DNA of 36,030 bases from Candidatus Altarchaeales archaeon ex4484_2 (GTDB lineage: Archaea; Altiarchaeota; Altiarchaeia; IMC4; QMZM01). The position numbers and the translations under genes were made by a program. The notes beneath the pieces were generated by a model. That model ran no database searches. It was not told the origin of the DNA and saw nothing but the letters and a program-made list of their open reading frames with translations. Shown here piece by piece: positions 7,734 to 15,614 of this stretch. The first letter of the stretch is position 1. Every line of letters begins with the position of its first letter. The stretch is taken from NCBI GenBank assembly GCA_002254565.1, contig NJEG01000021.1, positions 1 through 36,030 of the forward strand. Reading direction: 5' to 3'.

Positions 7734-8567
7734 TTATTTCTTCCTGATTCTACCCCTGCCTGAGGGAATCAATCTCTGGATATCCTGCAGATTCACCTTA
7801 CTAATCAACTCCTTACAGTCCTTTTTTGCCATGGAGTGGATTTTCTCCCGTATCTCTAAAGCAAGCTCCTTGCTCTTCTTCCTGCCAGATGTTAACTCCA
7901 CAAGATAGTCGGTTCTCTTCTTCACGGCATTAACAGGTCCACCGTAGACTTCAACCTCATCCTTTCCCACCCTGAACCCTACTGCCACACGCAAGGGGGT
8001 GTTCCTATACCATTTTTTCCGCCCATATATCATGAAGGCGCCCTTACCCAGGTATTCCCCAGCGGGAGCGTCCTTGGAAACCTGTCCAGGCCCTACCTCA
8101 TAAACATCCACTGAACCGATGCCCTGACTCCATGCCTTGCTATAGGAGGCGGCCGCCTGAGCTGCCTCCATCCTCGTGGAGTCTGGAACCTCCCCACCCT
8201 CCGGATTTTTTACCACGAAAAAAGGAGCACCATGGACGTGGGAGTGAAACACTAAATCATCTTTCGTTGTGTGTTTCTTAATCAAGCTCTCGTTGGTTGA
8301 TGCGTCCTTACCTCCTACTACAAGCAGGTCGTCGCTGCTATTAAAGAAACGAAATTTCTCAAACCACTTCTTCTCCCTCCTTGGTTTCTTTTTCTCCGGA
8401 ATCCTTTTCTCCACAATTTCATCTCTATTCAGTTCATCAAGCTTCTTTCTGGTCTTCTCAAGAGCCTTCATGGCTCCCATAATCTTTTTTTTAGCCTTCT
8501 TGGATTTCCTGTAGTAGTATTCCGCGTTCTCGGAGACTGATTTATTGGAGTCGATCGTGAACCTCAT
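7734..8567 (-). CDS. RqcH/NFACT C-terminal half (NFACT-R domain)
   Basis: This 277-residue protein consists only of the C-terminal part of the archaeal NFACT/RqcH (Rqc2/NEMF) family. It begins at the conserved IDSNKSVSENAEYYYRKSKK segment, which lies in the middle of normal full-length proteins. It continues through KWFEKFRFFNSSDDLLVVGG and HSHVHGAPFFVVKN, and carries the DUF814/NFACT-R signature QVSKDAPAGEYLGKGAFMIYG. The missing N-terminal domains are encoded at 10448-11605 on the other strand, with no obvious residues lost between the two. The start ATG overlaps the stop of the R15P-isomerase gene (ATGA), so the two are translated together. RqcH binds stalled 50S/peptidyl-tRNA complexes and recruits tRNA to add C-terminal tails. 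The two halves presumably assemble; that part is inference. Confidence 0.92.
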   Translation of the reverse strand: MRFTIDSNKSVSENAEYYYRKSKKAKKKIMGAMKALEKTRKKLDELNRDEIVEKRIPEKKKPRREKKWFEKFRFFNSSDDLLVVGGKDASTNESLIKKHTTKDDLVFHSHVHGAPFFVVKNPEGGEVPDSTRMEAAQAAASYSKAWSQGIGSVDVYEVGPGQVSKDAPAGEYLGKGAFMIYGRKKWYRNTPLRVAVGFRVGKDEVEVYGGPVNAVKKRTDYLVELTSGRKKSKELALEIREKIHSMAKKDCKELISKVNLQDIQRLIPSGRGRIRKK

Positions 8568-9490
8568 TGTCTGAGCTCCCAGCTGAATTTCTCCTTCACC
8601 ACCTGGTAGACTGCCTCTGGGGGCATGATGCCCAACTCTGTGACCACTATGTCCACCATGCTGGCGTCTGTTATATCAAATGCGGGATTATATACTCCTA
8701 AAATAGAGGGACGGTCTCGCCATACCTCATCAGGGTTTCTCTCCTCTATCTTTACAATCGAGCCCATCATCGACTGGGGTGAGAACTTGATGGACTCAAC
8801 GGCGACGATGAAATCTATGCCGTGTTTTCTCGCGCACAAGGCAACCTGGGAGGTCCCTATCTTGTTGACCACGTCCCCGTCCACGCACACTGTGTCTGCT
8901 CCGACCAGGACCTTATCAACCTTCTTTGTTTCCATGGTAATGCAGGCTGCGGAGTCAACGATTAAGGTAACAGGTATTCCAGCATCAAGCAATTCCCCGG
9001 TTGTTATGTGTCCCTGCATCCTTGGCCTGGTTTCTGTGGCATAAACAGTGAATTTTTTCCCCTTACTGTGGGCTCTCTTGAGAATCTCTATCACCGTATC
9101 AGAGTTGCAGTGCGTCAATAATACGTCATCGTCTCTTATTATATTGGAGCCTATCTCCGCGATCTCGTCCAGCGAGTTCTCCATCTCCTGGATGAACCTG
9201 CCTATGTCATCCAGCAATTGTTTCCTGAATTCTTCATCCCCTAGGTGGGAGTTTTTTTCAGCAAGGTAAAGTATGTAATCAACGGAGTTTGGTAATGAGA
9301 CAGCAGTAGGCCTTGCACTCTTCAACCTCTGCCCAGCATCCTGCAAGGTCTCAATGACCCCTCCTTCTTTAACAAGTTTTTTCATGGATTTAGCTGCTGT
9401 GACGGCGATATTCAGAGCTCCTCTAACCCTCATGGACTTTATGTCATTAACTACTGAGTCAACATCAGATAACACAATCTTTTTGACCAT
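8564..9490 (-). CDS. Ribose-1,5-bisphosphate isomerase (eIF2B-related)
   Basis: This 308-residue member of the eIF2B alpha/beta/delta superfamily is closest in pattern to archaeal ribose-1,5-bisphosphate isomerase. That enzyme converts R15P to ribulose-1,5-bisphosphate in the AMP/pentose-bisphosphate pathway. LLTHCNSDTV carries the cysteine (about C128) and VLVGADTVCVDG the aspartate (about D199) that correspond to the catalytic pair described for the Thermococcus enzyme. The substrate loops TRPRMQG and GTSQVALCARKHG are intact. It could be labelled translation initiation factor eIF2B subunit, but the Cys/Asp pair favours the isomerase. It is the first gene of a two-gene operon with the NFACT-R half, and its promoter lies in the 61-bp gap shared with the divergent ornithine carbamoyltransferase gene. 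Confidence 0.88.
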   Translation of the reverse strand: MVKKIVLSDVDSVVNDIKSMRVRGALNIAVTAAKSMKKLVKEGGVIETLQDAGQRLKSARPTAVSLPNSVDYILYLAEKNSHLGDEEFRKQLLDDIGRFIQEMENSLDEIAEIGSNIIRDDDVLLTHCNSDTVIEILKRAHSKGKKFTVYATETRPRMQGHITTGELLDAGIPVTLIVDSAACITMETKKVDKVLVGADTVCVDGDVVNKIGTSQVALCARKHGIDFIVAVESIKFSPQSMMGSIVKIEERNPDEVWRDRPSILGVYNPAFDITDASMVDIVVTELGIMPPEAVYQVVKEKFSWELRQ

Positions 9491-9551
9491 ATTTATCTAT
9501 TCAAATACATAAAAATATATCACTGGGGTTCCCGGATATAATACACGGAAA
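9491..9551. promoter_or_regulatory. Divergent promoter between R15P isomerase and OTC operons
   Basis: The 61 bp between the two start codons is A/T-rich. Minus-strand GATATATTTTTATG is a likely TATA region for the isomerase-NFACT-R operon. Plus-strand GGATATAATAC, about 20 bases before the carbamoyltransferase ATG, is the likely TATA region for the other operon. Because the two halves of RqcH are the second genes of these two operons, this single gap could coordinate their expression. No operator is evident. Confidence 0.55.
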
Positions 9552-10451
9552 ATGCACCTGCTTTCGATGTCTGATTTAAGCAAACAGGAACTCGAGTATT
9601 TTTTAGCTGAGACTAGAGCGATAAAAAACAATCCAGCCAGGTACCGGGATTCTATGTCTGATAAAACGCTTGTTTTGTTGTTTGAGAAACCAAGCACAAG
9701 GACTAAGGTATCCTTCGAGGTTGCGATGGTGCAGCTTGGAGGCTATCCAATAACCCTGGACTCCAGATCGTCACAGATGTCCAGGGGCGAGAGCATGGGG
9801 GACAGCGCCAGGGTATTAAGCAGGTACAGTGATGCTATAGCAGCAAGAGTATATACGCATGAGACCCTGGTGGAGTTGGCGGAGAACTCATCTATTCCAG
9901 TGATTAATGCATTATCGAATCTGGAGCACCCCTGTCAGGCCATAGCAGACCTGTACACCATGAAAGAATATAAGGGCTCTTTGGAGGCTGTTAAACTAGC
10001 TTACGTGGGGGATGGTAACAACGTCTGCAATTCCCTGCTCCTCGGTTGTGCGATGACGGGCGTTGATTTATCTGTTGCGTCCCCGCCTGATTATAAACCG
10101 GATGAGACTATACTCTCAAGGGCGCAGTCATTGGCTGATTCGAAGATTAAGCTCTATAATGATCCTTTGGATGCGGTCCAAGATGCTGACTTCATATACA
10201 CTGATGTCTGGGTGGGTATGGGTGATGAATCCGAGGAGGAGGAACGCCTTAATGCCTTCCAGGACTATCAGGTGAATACGGAGCTTATAAGGCAGGCAAA
10301 AAAGGACTGCCGGGTGATGCACTGCCTGCCAGCCCACAGGGGCCTGGAGATAACCGATGAAGTATTGGACAGCAGCAAGTCGATTGTATGGGAGCAGGCG
10401 GAGAACAGGTTACACACCCAGAAAGCAATAATCCTCAAGCTGATAGAATGA
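9552..10451 (+). CDS. argF: Ornithine carbamoyltransferase
   Basis: This 299-residue enzyme condenses ornithine and carbamoyl phosphate to citrulline in arginine synthesis. It shows the carbamoyl-phosphate motif FEKPSTRTKVSFEVAM (STRTK in place of the usual STRTR), HPCQAIADLYT, the nucleotide-like AYVGDGNNVCNSLL segment, TDVWVGMG, and the ornithine-loop signature MHCLPAHRG. The length is typical. It starts with ATG at 9552, just after the divergent promoter. The last codon and stop overlap the ATG of the RqcH N-terminal half (ATGA), so the two are translationally coupled. Confidence 0.96.
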   Translation: MHLLSMSDLSKQELEYFLAETRAIKNNPARYRDSMSDKTLVLLFEKPSTRTKVSFEVAMVQLGGYPITLDSRSSQMSRGESMGDSARVLSRYSDAIAARVYTHETLVELAENSSIPVINALSNLEHPCQAIADLYTMKEYKGSLEAVKLAYVGDGNNVCNSLLLGCAMTGVDLSVASPPDYKPDETILSRAQSLADSKIKLYNDPLDAVQDADFIYTDVWVGMGDESEEEERLNAFQDYQVNTELIRQAKKDCRVMHCLPAHRGLEITDEVLDSSKSIVWEQAENRLHTQKAIILKLIE

Positions 10452-11605
10452 AGTCCGAGCTCTCCTCCCTGGATGTTTCCGTCCTGGTTGATGAACTAAA
10501 TGACCTGCTCGGGGATTCCAGGGTCCGGAATGTGTACCAGATAGGGGAGAAAGAGCTTAAGATCAAGTTTTTCATCTCCGGGAAGGGGAATGTGGACCTA
10601 ATTATTGCGGCAAACTATCTATGTGTTTCATCCTACAGCAGGCCTTCACCCCAGGAGCCAACATCTTTCGCGATGCAGTTGAGGAAGTACCTGAAGGGTT
10701 TATTCCTCAAGGAAGTTCGACAGCATGACTTCGACCGCATTGTTGAGTTCTTGTTCAGGGGGAAAGAAAAATATTTCCTCTTAATTGTTGAGTTGTTCAG
10801 CTCCGGTAACGTGATACTATCCAGTATGGATGGAAAAATCATCGGTGTCCTGGAGTGGCAGAAGTGGAGGCACAGGAGGCTTGGCGTGGGCCAGGACTAT
10901 AGTTATCCTCCTGGGGGGGTTAATCCCCTGGAGATTGAAAGAGAAAAATTTAGTGATATGCTGGCTGGCTCAGATAAAAAGATTGTTTCGGCTCTTGCCT
11001 CTGAGCTGAACCTTGGGGGTCTGGTTGCGGAGGAAATCTGTTTAAGGTCTACAGTTGACAAGGATGTGAGTGCGTCCTCTCTTGGCGTTGATGTAATCAA
11101 CCGCCTCTATGAGAGCATCAGGGAAGTCAGGGATGAGCTGGATAAAGAGGATGTGAAGCCGGTGCTGGTTTTTGATTCAGAGGATAATCCAGTAGATGCC
11201 TTACCTTTCCCCTTCAAAAAATACGATGATTCCAGACTTAAGCTGATGGATTCATTTAATCAGGCGGTGGATGAGCTATTCAGCCTCAGGGAGATAGATG
11301 AGATAGAGTCCAGTATGGATAAGTGTTTTGCGGAGAAAAAAGAAAAGCTTGAGCGTATCAGGGCCAGCCAGGAGGGGACTATTGAAAGCATGGAGCGCGA
11401 GAGCGTGGATATGAAGCGGGTTGGGGACCTGATCTATCAGAGCATGTCCCAGATAGAGCAGTTGATTAAAGCAGTTAATGAAGCAAGGGATAAGGGCTAC
11501 GACTGGGATGATATAAACATGAAGCTTTCCGGCAGGCGGATAGAAGGGTTGACTATTGTTGAGGTTAAGCGTAACGGCTCCATATTACTTGATGAAGTAG
11601 AATGA
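10448..11605 (+). CDS. RqcH/NFACT N-terminal half (NFACT-N, HhH, coiled coil)
   Basis: This 385-residue protein contains the first three domains of RqcH/NFACT and stops before NFACT-R. NFACT-N spans about 1-200, with EPTSFAMQLRKYLKG and the functionally important Asp-Arg pair in HDFDRIVEF (D96/R97). An aspartate at residue 9 matches the conserved early Asp of Rqc2. A helix-hairpin-helix-like block follows (LGGLVAEEICLRSTVDKDV), then the coiled-coil M domain (KKEKLERIRASQEGTIESME to GYDWDDINMKL), ending GSILLDEVE. The ATG at 10448 is preferred over the track's 10388 because it overlaps the argF stop (ATGA). Its own stop overlaps the phosphodiesterase start (ATGA). The missing C-terminal domain is at 7734-8567. 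Confidence 0.93.
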   Translation: MKSELSSLDVSVLVDELNDLLGDSRVRNVYQIGEKELKIKFFISGKGNVDLIIAANYLCVSSYSRPSPQEPTSFAMQLRKYLKGLFLKEVRQHDFDRIVEFLFRGKEKYFLLIVELFSSGNVILSSMDGKIIGVLEWQKWRHRRLGVGQDYSYPPGGVNPLEIEREKFSDMLAGSDKKIVSALASELNLGGLVAEEICLRSTVDKDVSASSLGVDVINRLYESIREVRDELDKEDVKPVLVFDSEDNPVDALPFPFKKYDDSRLKLMDSFNQAVDELFSLREIDEIESSMDKCFAEKKEKLERIRASQEGTIESMERESVDMKRVGDLIYQSMSQIEQLIKAVNEARDKGYDWDDINMKLSGRRIEGLTIVEVKRNGSILLDEVE

Positions 11606-12087
11606 TTGGTTTAATAGCTGACACACACGACAACATGAAGGCTATCCAGGAGGCGGTGGACTTCTTTAACTTTCGGGATGTGGCTTTGGTCCTGCATGCA
11701 GGAGACCTGGTATCTCCCTTCACGGCCAGAGAATTCAAGCGGTTGAATGCTCCCTTCCATGCGGTATACGGCAACAACGAGGGTGAGCGGGAGGGCTTGA
11801 GGGATAAGTTTAGGGGTTTATGCGAGCTCTCGGATTTCATCGAGCTAGAGCATAATAAAAAGAAAATCTGCATATACCATGGCACCATCCCTTTCATACT
11901 GAGGTCCCTTGTGGAGTCACAGATTTATGATCTGGTGGTATCCGGGCACACTCACAACCCGGAATCCAGGAGGACTGGTAACACACTATTGGTTAATCCC
12001 GGGGAATGCTGTGGATATCTCACGGGCAAGAAGACCATAGCGTTGGTGGATTCAGCGGATTTATCTATTGAGTTTATTGAGCTTTAG
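11602..12087 (+). CDS. YfcE/MJ0936-like metallophosphodiesterase
   Basis: This 161-residue calcineurin-like phosphoesterase belongs to the small YfcE/MJ0936 group. The metal-binding motifs are all present: IADTHDN, LHAGDLV, YGNNEGER, CIYHGT and VVSGHTHNPE, followed by LLVNPGECCGY. Proteins of this group hydrolyse model phosphodiesters; the physiological substrate is unknown. Its ATG overlaps the stop of the RqcH N-half, making it the third gene of the argF operon. The 3' end overlaps the remains of an isochorismatase gene on the minus strand. Confidence 0.93.
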   Translation: MIGLIADTHDNMKAIQEAVDFFNFRDVALVLHAGDLVSPFTAREFKRLNAPFHAVYGNNEGEREGLRDKFRGLCELSDFIELEHNKKKICIYHGTIPFILRSLVESQIYDLVVSGHTHNPESRRTGNTLLVNPGECCGYLTGKKTIALVDSADLSIEFIEL

Positions 12088-12450: not shown

Positions 12451-13224
12451 TTAATCCAATAATCCTCGAATCTTTTTCTGTTCATCGTTGCTTAACTTTT
12501 TCATCCCATCTTTAATAATCCATCTCGCATCCTTACCTGGATTTGCTTTAGCCCATTTCATTAAGTGTTTTGCTACCTCATCAGGATTCTTTTTGGTTAT
12601 CTCTCTCAAAATCCATGAAACTGCTTTTTTAACATCTGGTTCGTTATCCCCCATAACGGAATCAAGAATCTCGAAAACAGTATCTGTTGTTTGGATTCTC
12701 TTGTATCCTCGTAAACTCACTACTCCAAAACGTCTAATCCATTTATTCTCGCTCTTACTCCATTTTTCAGAGAGAGGCAGAACGAGTTCAGGATTGGAAT
12801 AGACTATCGGCTCTACTCCAAACATGGCAAGGTTGTCACAAACCGACCAGTTATCAAGATCAGGCAATACTGAGGAGATAAAATCTAGACAAATTTCCGG
12901 ATTCCTTGGACCGAACTTCTCCAAGCATTTCCCTGCTATCTGTCTTGCTTCAAAAGAAGCTTCGCCCCAGATAGTCTCTAACAAAAGTTTCGCTTCTGTT
13001 GATTCCTTCTGGATAAATTCCCCTATCTCGGCAGCTATCACTCTCAAGATAGGAATTGGAACCCCGAAAAACCTTCCAGTACCTGGAATGATCCTCTGGT
13101 AATTTTTTGTTGCGTCTCCATCCACATAGGATTCAAGGAGTTCCTGCAATCCCTTCGTGAATTCCTTTGGATTCTCTGCTTTTTCAAGCAATTTCTTTGT
13201 TCTTTTTTGAATTAATGTTTTCAT
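12451..13224 (-). CDS. AlkD-like DNA alkylation repair protein (HEAT-like repeats)
   Basis: This 257-residue all-helical protein resembles AlkD-family DNA glycosylases and their relatives. Typical blocks are FFGVPIPILRVIAAEIGEF, ARQIAGKCLEKFGP, LDNWSVCDNLAM (the Trp/Asp segment near residues 126-130), and KWIRRFGVVSLRGYKR with the conserved arginines near 164-165, followed by VKKAVSWILREI. AlkD excises alkylated bases by capturing exposed backbone, and many family members are uncharacterised. The ATG overlaps the stop of the radical SAM gene by one base (TAATG), so the two are co-translated. It could act on other damage, and the assignment is at family level only. Confidence 0.82.
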   Translation of the reverse strand: MKTLIQKRTKKLLEKAENPKEFTKGLQELLESYVDGDATKNYQRIIPGTGRFFGVPIPILRVIAAEIGEFIQKESTEAKLLLETIWGEASFEARQIAGKCLEKFGPRNPEICLDFISSVLPDLDNWSVCDNLAMFGVEPIVYSNPELVLPLSEKWSKSENKWIRRFGVVSLRGYKRIQTTDTVFEILDSVMGDNEPDVKKAVSWILREITKKNPDEVAKHLMKWAKANPGKDARWIIKDGMKKLSNDEQKKIRGLLD

Positions 13225-14063
13225 TATTTTTTCAATTTTGTTTGTGTGGGGTGCCTGAAAATCAAATTCAGGGAGAACTCATATCTATTGCATAAAGTTA
13301 TTACCTTGCTCCTGATACCTTCATAGTATTCATTCGTAAGCCACTTCCTGCGGTAATCTGTGGCTAACTCAGGATAATGTTTATCAAGAACTTTTTTAAT
13401 CTCCGGCCAGTTACCGCATTTAAGATTTAGCTTATCCAGGAGGATTGTTTTAACTCCTGCTTCTCTAAAATGTTTGAATAATTCCTCCAGGTTTTTATCG
13501 CTAATCCCGGGAATAAATGGGCCGATAAAAACGGAAGTGGGGATTCCAGATTCGCTCATTTTTTCCAACGCTTTTAGGCGGCTTTTAACTGATGGGGCTT
13601 TTGGCTCAAAATTCCTAGCATCTTTTTCATCCAAACAGGTTATAGTAACTCCTGGCTGATGAATGGAATTACCGAATTTCTTTAGGATATCAATATCTCT
13701 TGTAATCAGTGGTGATTTAGTTAATAGGGCAATCTGGAAATTATTCTCCGCCAGAATCTCTAAGCAGTGGCGGGTAATCTGGTATTTCTTTTCCACTGCC
13801 TGGTAGGCATCTGTCACGGAAGAAATCATCACTATGCCTGGTTTTAGATGTTTAACCTGTTCCTCTAAAGCATCAGGGATATTGATTTTTACATCAACAA
13901 ATTCACCCCATTTCTCCCTGCCTTCTCTGTAAAAACACATAAAACGGGCGTAACAGTAAACACATCCATGAAGACAGCCGATATACGGATTGAGGGTATA
14001 GTCAAATCCCTTTATTTTACATGGATTCAGGGCTCTTTTACATCTAACCTCTCTGATTATCAT
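13224..14063 (-). CDS. SplB-like radical SAM protein
   Basis: This 279-residue radical SAM protein has the cluster motif CLHGCVYC (Cx3Cx2C; C30, C34, C37) preceded by DYTLNPYIGC, as in the spore-photoproduct-lyase-related, Rv2578c-like group. Downstream lie PGIVMISSVTDAYQAVEKKY, LLTKSPLITRDIDILKKFG, VTITCLDEKDARNFEP and the TIM-barrel segment GIPTSVFIGPFIPGISD. These match the family order, and the length is near complete. The biochemical function of this subgroup is not established. Its pairing with an AlkD-like protein suggests DNA or nucleic-acid repair, which is inference. It is the upstream gene of a two-gene unit inside the island and lies just downstream of an insertion sequence. Confidence 0.85.
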   Translation of the reverse strand: MIIREVRCKRALNPCKIKGFDYTLNPYIGCLHGCVYCYARFMCFYREGREKWGEFVDVKINIPDALEEQVKHLKPGIVMISSVTDAYQAVEKKYQITRHCLEILAENNFQIALLTKSPLITRDIDILKKFGNSIHQPGVTITCLDEKDARNFEPKAPSVKSRLKALEKMSESGIPTSVFIGPFIPGISDKNLEELFKHFREAGVKTILLDKLNLKCGNWPEIKKVLDKHYPELATDYRRKWLTNEYYEGIRSKVITLCNRYEFSLNLIFRHPTQTKLKK

Positions 14064-14094: not shown

Positions 14095-15614
14095 GAAATT
14101 CTTAAATTCCCAGCACTTTAGGGACTAGGACATCCAACCCCTCAAATAGTCCCCTCTGCTTCTTGGTCATCTCAGGGATGAGCATCTCATCCTTGAACAC
14201 CTTTGCTTTGAGGTTTCTGAGAAGGAGCAGGGCCTCCTCAACAGTAACCTTCTTCCCCAGCTTCTTTTTCAACAGCAAAAACGCGCTCAACGTTATGAAG
14301 GTCAACAACAGATAGCCACGCATGCTCTCCTCCTTGTGCACCCGCAAAGGCAGTAGTTCCAGATCATCCTTTGAGAACCTGAAGAGTTGTTCCGCAGTAT
14401 GTCTGCTGTAGTAAAACGATACTACATCGTTCCTCGGAAGATCGATAGACGAAACAAGGATCATAATGCCTTTCTTCTTCAGGAGGAATTCTTTATCGTC
14501 TGTGATCTCATCCGTCTCACCCAAGCGAAGAATGAGTTTCCTCGTCTCCCTGCCCTTACGCTCCGGATCAAGCACGACATAAGCAAAGGCCTTTTTTCCG
14601 AAGAGGTGTATTCCATGCTTCTTCACAAAAAGCCCTCTCTCACCATATGCTGAGGCGTGTTTCATACTTTCCAGATCACTGCTCTCCTTAATAAGCTCTT
14701 TGTAGAGCACCCTGTTTGAGGGCAGCCTTACCATGAAGGGAATCCCTTTCTCATGCATCGCCCTTATGTTGCCTTCAGAGTAGAAACCTGCGTCAAAGAT
14801 GCAGTAGGTATCCTTTATGCCGAGCTTTTTCAGTTCCTCTATTGTGGGCTTCAAACTTGAAACATCCGGGACACTTCCCGGGATGTATCTGAAGAACAGC
14901 GGCATCGAACTCGCCTTGTCAACTACAAGCATAAGATTCACCTGCTTGTCTATGTCCTCATCGTGATAATCCCACTGTGAGAAGGGTATGTGTATCTGGT
15001 TAGGCATCGCGGTCACGTCTAAAAGCAGGCCGTCTGAAGAGTGGTCTATGAAGGAAAGGTAGTTTTCGAAGAACAGACGGTAGTTGTCTTCATCCCCTAT
15101 CTCAACCATCAACTCACTGATCCTCTGCGACTTCAGCTCCGCCTTGCATAAGTGCCTTATCACATTGCCGTTCTGCCAGGTCTCCGCCAGCCTCATCGCG
15201 GAGGGGTGGCGGAGTTTATAGCAGACCAGGTTGAATAGCATGTTTGTCTTATCGCCGAACGTATCTTCAAGCACCTTGGTGAAGCCCTCCTTCTCCAGGA
15301 ACCGGTGCAGAAGGAACGTGTCGCCGAAGTCGAGGATAAGCTCTTCCTTCAAGAGCTTCTCCTTCAACGTCTTTTTGAAGACCTTCTTTTCCTTATCGAT
15401 TACAACGCCAAGGTACTTTGATTTATGTCTTGATTGTTTGGCTTTCTTGTCCCAGTAGCTGGTTAGTTCGTAGGCATACTCTTTGTTTCCGATTTTTTTG
15501 TAGGATACAAAAGACATAGTTACAATTAGGGACTATGAGTATAACAATACAAGCGTCTCTTGATGCGAAAAATACCTAGCTAGTACCTAAGAATTCGGGA
15601 ATTTAGGAAATTTG
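14095..15614 (-). mobile_element. IS1634-like insertion sequence
   Basis: A complete transposase gene is bounded by imperfect inverted repeats. On the left, at and just before the transposase stop, the sequence is TAAATTCCC, six bases, then TTTAGG (14103 onward). The right end, read on the minus strand, is TAAATTCCC, six bases, then CTTAGG (15586-15605). About seven further bases outward (AAATTC-like) also match with mismatches, giving approximate ends at 14095 and 15614. No clear target-site duplication is visible, so the exact ends are uncertain. Confidence 0.65.
14102..15517 (-). CDS. IS1634-family (IS4-like) DDE transposase
   Basis: This 471-residue transposase has the DDE triad in the IS4/IS1634 arrangement: LLLDVTAMP (D167), CIFDAGFYSEGNI (D242) and YSRHTAEQLFRFSKDDLEL (E376, the Y(2)R(3)E(6)K-type signature). 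The N-terminal region carries the short KYLG segment common in this family. No internal stop or frameshift is present, so it may be active. The stop codon lies within the left inverted repeat. It starts with ATG at 15517. Confidence 0.9.
   Translation of the reverse strand: MSFVSYKKIGNKEYAYELTSYWDKKAKQSRHKSKYLGVVIDKEKKVFKKTLKEKLLKEELILDFGDTFLLHRFLEKEGFTKVLEDTFGDKTNMLFNLVCYKLRHPSAMRLAETWQNGNVIRHLCKAELKSQRISELMVEIGDEDNYRLFFENYLSFIDHSSDGLLLDVTAMPNQIHIPFSQWDYHDEDIDKQVNLMLVVDKASSMPLFFRYIPGSVPDVSSLKPTIEELKKLGIKDTYCIFDAGFYSEGNIRAMHEKGIPFMVRLPSNRVLYKELIKESSDLESMKHASAYGERGLFVKKHGIHLFGKKAFAYVVLDPERKGRETRKLILRLGETDEITDDKEFLLKKKGIMILVSSIDLPRNDVVSFYYSRHTAEQLFRFSKDDLELLPLRVHKEESMRGYLLLTFITLSAFLLLKKKLGKKVTVEEALLLLRNLKAKVFKDEMLIPEMTKKQRGLFEGLDVLVPKVLGI

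Follow-up and report, generated by a model that had tools for sequence, protein, structure and literature searches.

A two-gene variant of the ribosome quality control factor RqcH/NEMF in Altiarchaeota and other DPANN archaea

Introduction

The NFACT domains were reportedly defined by Burroughs and Aravind in 2014, and the RqcH/NEMF proteins that carry them, which aid the clearance of stalled ribosomes, are normally described as single chains. The family has been traced back to LUCA (PMC6514570). In NEMF, the M domain at the end of the coiled coil consists of three short helices and two strands and contacts the sarcin-ricin loop, and the coiled coil itself is located at the stalk (PMC4321881). 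The arm and M domain of RqcH are described similarly (PMC8373112).

Archaeal RqcH (NF041120) and bacterial RqcH (PDB 7AQC, 7AS8) have in common with the pair of genes described here the domain order, the Asp-Arg (DR) pair, the arm with its M hairpin and the NFACT-R domain. The pair differs from them in consisting of two genes, cut according to structural models at the turn of the M hairpin and mostly unlinked in relatives. Eukaryotic NEMF and Rqc2 (PDB 3J92, 9GY4, 8AAF), which gave the best PDB matches, are homologous along both chains but are themselves single chains, whereas the present one is encoded as two. Conserved fissions of translation-related genes at a fixed site, with the halves likewise on different contigs, are described for pheT and diphthamide synthase in Altiarchaeales and other DPANN archaea (PMC4975002, PMC6349945). 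These are different genes, and the passages of the two papers that deal with them mention neither NFACT nor RqcH. A search limited to open papers returned no description of a split RqcH, and the words NFACT and Rqc are absent from the main text of a survey of archaeal fusions and fissions.

Identification of the two genes

The DNA analyzed (hereafter the window) is a stretch of 36,030 nucleotides, contig NJEG01000021.1 of Candidatus Altarchaeales archaeon ex4484_2, positions 1 to 36,030. The host genome is an Altiarchaeota draft of 1.395 Mb in 53 contigs, 83% complete. A first-pass annotation of the window had described two intact genes, at 10448..11605 (+) and 7734..8567 (−), as parts of one RqcH/NFACT protein; their coordinates, starts and open frames were borne out, both frames beginning with ATG and being free of internal stops. 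The gene on the plus strand encodes an N-terminal chain of RqcH/NFACT of 385 amino acids (the N half), which comprises NFACT-N, HhH, the first helix of the coiled coil (helix 1) and the larger part of the M domain. The gene on the minus strand encodes a C-terminal chain of 277 amino acids (the R half), in which the second strand of the hairpin and the second helix of the coiled coil (helix 2) precede NFACT-R.

In Pfam searches, the N half matched NFACT_N (PF05833) with 198 bits over profile positions 3–355, and it matched PDB profiles as well. The R half matched NFACT-R_1 (PF05670) with 115 bits over the full domain, residues 71–182 (8022..8357, −), and also matched the tail of NFACT_N (profile positions 370–416). 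The HhH domain of the N half corresponds to helices 165–232 of its AlphaFold model, and the region matched the HhH parts of Fpg and uS13 using HMMER. Against the archaeal RqcH model NF041120 (NCBI, 645 positions), the N half covered positions 1–352 with 310 bits and the R half positions 381–644 with 328 bits, the sum being about the same as the 629 bits reached by a fused relative across the whole model. Because the cut-off of NF041120 is 400 bits and each half alone falls below it, the model would not name either half RqcH, and model-based annotation can overlook the factor in genomes where its gene is split.

No polypeptide carrying all domains is present in the host genome, where the domains of the family are spread over the two genes, and domain searches of this 83% complete genome returned no other copy of NFACT-N or NFACT-R and no full-length gene. 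The pair is a two-chain variant of RqcH/NEMF; the single-chain layout is a property of the members described so far and not a criterion of homology.

Each half is the second gene of its operon, joined to the gene before it by an ATGA overlap, and the operons diverge from a gap of 61 bp (9491..9551), all as first described. The R half lies downstream of an IF-2B family gene (8564..9490, −) and the N half downstream of an ornithine/aspartate carbamoyltransferase (OTCase) gene (9552..10451, +). The N half is also overlapped by a calcineurin-like phosphoesterase gene (11602..12087, +), a conserved neighbor of the N half in family f1.

Position of the break

The break was placed by reference to an AlphaFold model of a complete fused relative from Aenigmatarchaeota (L069; mean pLDDT 91, pTM 0.60), for which the best structural matches in a fold search were NEMF, Rqc2 and RqcH. 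In this model, coiled-coil helix 1 (residues 265–326) is followed by the helices of the M domain (328–365), strands 366–370 and 375–380, a two-residue turn, strand 383–388, helix 2 (393–431) and then NFACT-R. Met1 of the window R half maps to about position 383. Judged by the model, the break is at the turn of the M-domain beta-hairpin, at the far end of the coiled-coil arm, and each chain retains one hairpin strand and one coiled-coil helix, with helix 2 on the R half. The break had at first been put between the coiled-coil and M region (CC-M) and NFACT-R, which the mapping of Met1 contradicts, since the cut lies inside the M domain. Of the content assigned to the N gene at the time, NFACT-N and HhH stand, but CC-M is not entire, as helix 2 and one hairpin strand are on the R half.

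The AlphaFold model of the N half (pLDDT 90.5) has a helix at residues 270–331 and a terminal strand at 379–381. The helix (11255..11440, +) corresponds to helix 265–326 of the fused relative and is predicted to be coiled-coil helix 1. The M-domain helices and the first M-hairpin strand, up to the break (residues 333–385; 11444..11602, +), were delimited from the N-half and fused models using the published anatomy (PMC4321881), and the second hairpin strand and coiled-coil helix 2 (R-half residues 1–51; 8415..8567, −) from alignments, mapping to the fused model and a check of heptads.

Where a split R protein has a Met close to its start, this residue falls on profile position 0 or −1, with four exceptions. 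The N halves of Altiarchaeota stop 1–5 residues beyond the last strand, with one exception, and most of those outside Altiarchaeota likewise stop within about 5 residues, some in the phylum of genome G034 being shorter. The two coiled-coil helices and the two hairpin strands remain conserved at full length in split forms, in which the heptad signal of either helix is about as strong as in fused forms.

Conservation and selection on both halves

The near-invariant columns of the fused proteins are all kept in the window pair (19/19 in the R half and 13/13 in the N half). The Asp-Arg pair was correctly reported as retained: it is D96-R97 of the N half (QHDFDR; 10733..10738, +), the counterpart of D97-R98 of B. 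subtilis RqcH, in which the D97A/R98A substitution abolished specificity for tRNA-Ala (PMC8373112). A DR or ER pair was found in all 74 aligned rows except those of family f7.

Between the window and the congener G001, dN/dS (Nei-Gojobori counts) was 0.146 for the R half and 0.175 for the N half, values similar to those of two neighbor genes (0.209 and 0.127). Low ratios for both halves in relatives had been named in advance as a sign of function, and by these counts both are under purifying selection. The proposal of a fixed, functional fission as opposed to decay is upheld by intact halves in independent relatives, purifying selection and the near-invariant residues kept.

Loss of conserved residues from the halves of relatives, which had been raised as an objection to function, was seen solely in the distant family f7. 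In this family, of the same class (L226:4440-5315, L228:4180-5052, L229:3848-4714), the N half is about 290 amino acids long, is without the HhH stretch (profile positions 159–285) and has DK in place of the DR pair. The sequences suggest that tRNA recognition by the f7 N half is changed or lost, and the function of the factor may be altered in this family.

Survey of split and fused forms

The state of the gene was gauged by the open frame around NFACT-R, short frames being scored as split and long frames as fused. The broken N half of G170 is due to a contig end. In Altiarchaeota, frames were short in 22/23 genomes with a match; in G006 and G021 the frame is cut by the end of the contig, and G024 is fused. 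All frames were short in the phylum of G036 (18/18) and in that of G034 (145/145), both of which group with Diapherotrites, the placement being by trees. PF05833 was matched in 146/146 genomes of the G034 phylum, a few showing the R-half tail only, and an N half was counted in about 141. In the Nanoarchaeota/Woesearchaeota phylum, 123/148 genomes had a match, with 11 long frames, ten of them holding both halves, and the gene is split in about 110 of the 123. In the Aenigmatarchaeota-group phylum, 58/96 genomes had a match and 50 frames were long; four genomes (G363, G389, G409, G430) have a full R half that starts at the same position, and the remainder are R-only forms or end with the contig. 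In Methanobacteriota, used as a control, all 117 matches were in long frames but for that of G545, which is truncated by the end of its contig.

Among the named cases, Bathyarchaeota, Thermococci, methanogens, Asgard archaea, Nanohaloarchaea and most Aenigmatarchaeota are examples of the fused state, and Woesearchaeota, Nanoarchaeota, Diapherotrites and Forterrea of the split state; in most of the named split genomes tested, N and R were found as separate genes. The split, sought in relatives of the window, thus occurs across Altiarchaeota and further phyla of the small-celled DPANN archaea. In several DPANN lineages it is the prevailing state, and in nearly all cases the cut is displaced by no more than one or two residues. 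The first-pass annotation regarded a two-subunit factor as unusual; the split is so relative to the fused Methanobacteriota but is commonplace in these lineages.

Three further forms were noted. L308, L309, L310 and L311, from Aenigmatarchaeota-group genomes, are NFACT-R-only proteins of 217–237 amino acids without the coiled-coil helix. G397 of the same group has a long-frame copy besides a short NFACT-R-only protein. In Diapherotrites, L302:1538-2595 encodes an N half in two overlapping frames, reflecting a frameshift or a further break.

Gene order in relatives

The neighborhoods of the N half and the R half are joined only in genus g1 (G000–G002). In family f1 (G010, G011), the order is OTCase, N half, phosphoesterase, with IF-2B divergent, and in family f5 (G016, G020, G022) the N half adjoins a divergent IF-2B gene. 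The R half is 1–2 kb from a TGS GTPase gene in G004, G016 and G018. In most relatives a long distance separates the halves, for example about 200 kb in G018 and about 696 kb in G015, a single contig in which a full-length copy was not seen. The split is older than the adjacency of the halves. An origin by local inversion, which the first-pass annotation had entertained, is ruled out by synteny, the halves being distant in most relatives and joined in this genus only. For the same reason, co-expression from the shared divergent gap is a genus trait at best: it could apply in g1, outside which the arrangement is absent.

Phylogenetic tests of the fission

In a larger NFACT-R tree that included fused Nanoarchaeota and split Aenigmatarchaeota, split forms did not make up a single clade and 7 state changes were counted. 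G430 of the Aenigmatarchaeota group (L305:1295-3292) has the halves in tandem with their original order preserved; a stop and about 20 bp lie between them, and the pair is apparently the product of a fission in place. Altiarchaeota including f7 as one split clade, with the fused G024 outside, was permitted (p 0.67). A single clade of all split forms was rejected with the concatenated N and R data (74 rows, 646 columns; p-AU 4e-5), and therefore the fission, which is old, either struck the M-hairpin turn at least twice or occurred once and was followed by several re-fusions, with the event in G430 as a further fission.

That the same M-hairpin turn was cut in parallel three times or more is a tentative choice, which we put somewhat short of even odds; the arm tip would then tolerate breaks, two-chain RqcH would be normal in most Altiarchaeota, Nanoarchaeota/Woesearchaeota, Diapherotrites and related phyla, and the ribosome may be where the chains assemble or exchange. 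The alternative, which concerns origin and not function, is a single ancient fission in an ancestral DPANN archaeon that passed by vertical descent to all split lineages, with several re-fusions in the fused ones. It would account for a break and start position almost identical across lineages and for a first, smaller NFACT-R tree, in which a clade (SH-aLRT 85) held all split rows and only two fused ones, and a single split clade without G430 gave a borderline p of 0.066 and was not rejected. We nevertheless consider it rather unlikely, given the rejection of the all-split clade, the concatenated tree, which places split forms separately and needs 5 state changes, and the nesting of G430, with its halves 20 bp apart, among fused relatives.

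Proposed assembly of the two chains

We consider it probable (roughly 0.82) that the two genes encode two chains of one RqcH/NEMF-type factor, rejoined through the coiled coil and the hairpin. Chain N would bring the domains that recognize tRNA (NFACT-N and HhH), the first coiled-coil helix and the bulk of the M domain, and chain R would add the remaining M strand, the second coiled-coil helix and NFACT-R. From the retained helices and strands, rejoining would be post-translational, by antiparallel pairing of the coiled coil and closure of the M hairpin, a natural means of keeping two chains in contact. The rejoined factor would sit on the 50S-peptidyl-tRNA complex like the single-chain protein, with the arm tip at the stalk base. 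As in RqcH, NFACT-N/HhH would be placed on the tRNA, with the arm spanning the factor site and NFACT-R opposite. By analogy with bacterial and eukaryotic work, on which the presumed function of archaeal RqcH is modeled, it would bind 50S and carry out alanine-type tailing. Both halves are retained together in Altiarchaeota and in other phyla, and N and R distances have a correlation of 0.91, which fits co-inherited partners and also shared ancestry.

It is improbable that the halves have instead parted in function, the R chain working alone (for example, as an RNA-binding or rescue factor) and the N chain being a reduced RQC or tRNA-binding factor. Parted halves would be in keeping with genes unlinked in most genomes, with R-only proteins without the coiled-coil helix in some Aenigmatarchaeota-group genomes, with the loss of HhH and DR from the f7 N half and with eukaryotic CCDC25 (PDB 7EOE), an NFACT-R-type protein outside a full NEMF chain, among the fold-search matches of the fused model. 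Two independent chains would not, however, be expected to keep helix 1, helix 2 and both strands at their length and with their heptad pattern, or to be co-retained across phyla; the correlation of distances points the same way, though shared ancestry also gives such a value. CCDC25 is a stand-alone eukaryotic NFACT-R protein that is not known to have a paired NFACT-N chain and presumably has a different coiled-coil arrangement. An assembly artefact or pseudogene, in which an inversion misassembly or a decaying gene mimics a split, can be practically dismissed even for a draft of 53 contigs, as the independently assembled congeners G001 and G002 have the gene order of the window, which argues against misassembly at 8567–10448, the same split is found in >200 independent genomes, single-contig ones included, and both halves appear to be under purifying selection.

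Fixed in several DPANN phyla, the two-chain form of RqcH/NEMF would be a natural protein split at the base of the ribosome stalk, one that lets NFACT-N and NFACT-R be studied separately. The split is also a rare genomic character for DPANN relationships, to be used with caution in view of the tree tests, by which the same site was cut repeatedly or rejoined.

Two other genes of the window were noted beyond the N-half operon. An intact-looking IS1634-family transposase gene (14102–15517, −) lies about 2 kb away from the operon's last gene, and a radical SAM protein (13224–14063, −) resembles the PA0069/Rv2578c and mobile-pair B families, with scores below their cut-offs.
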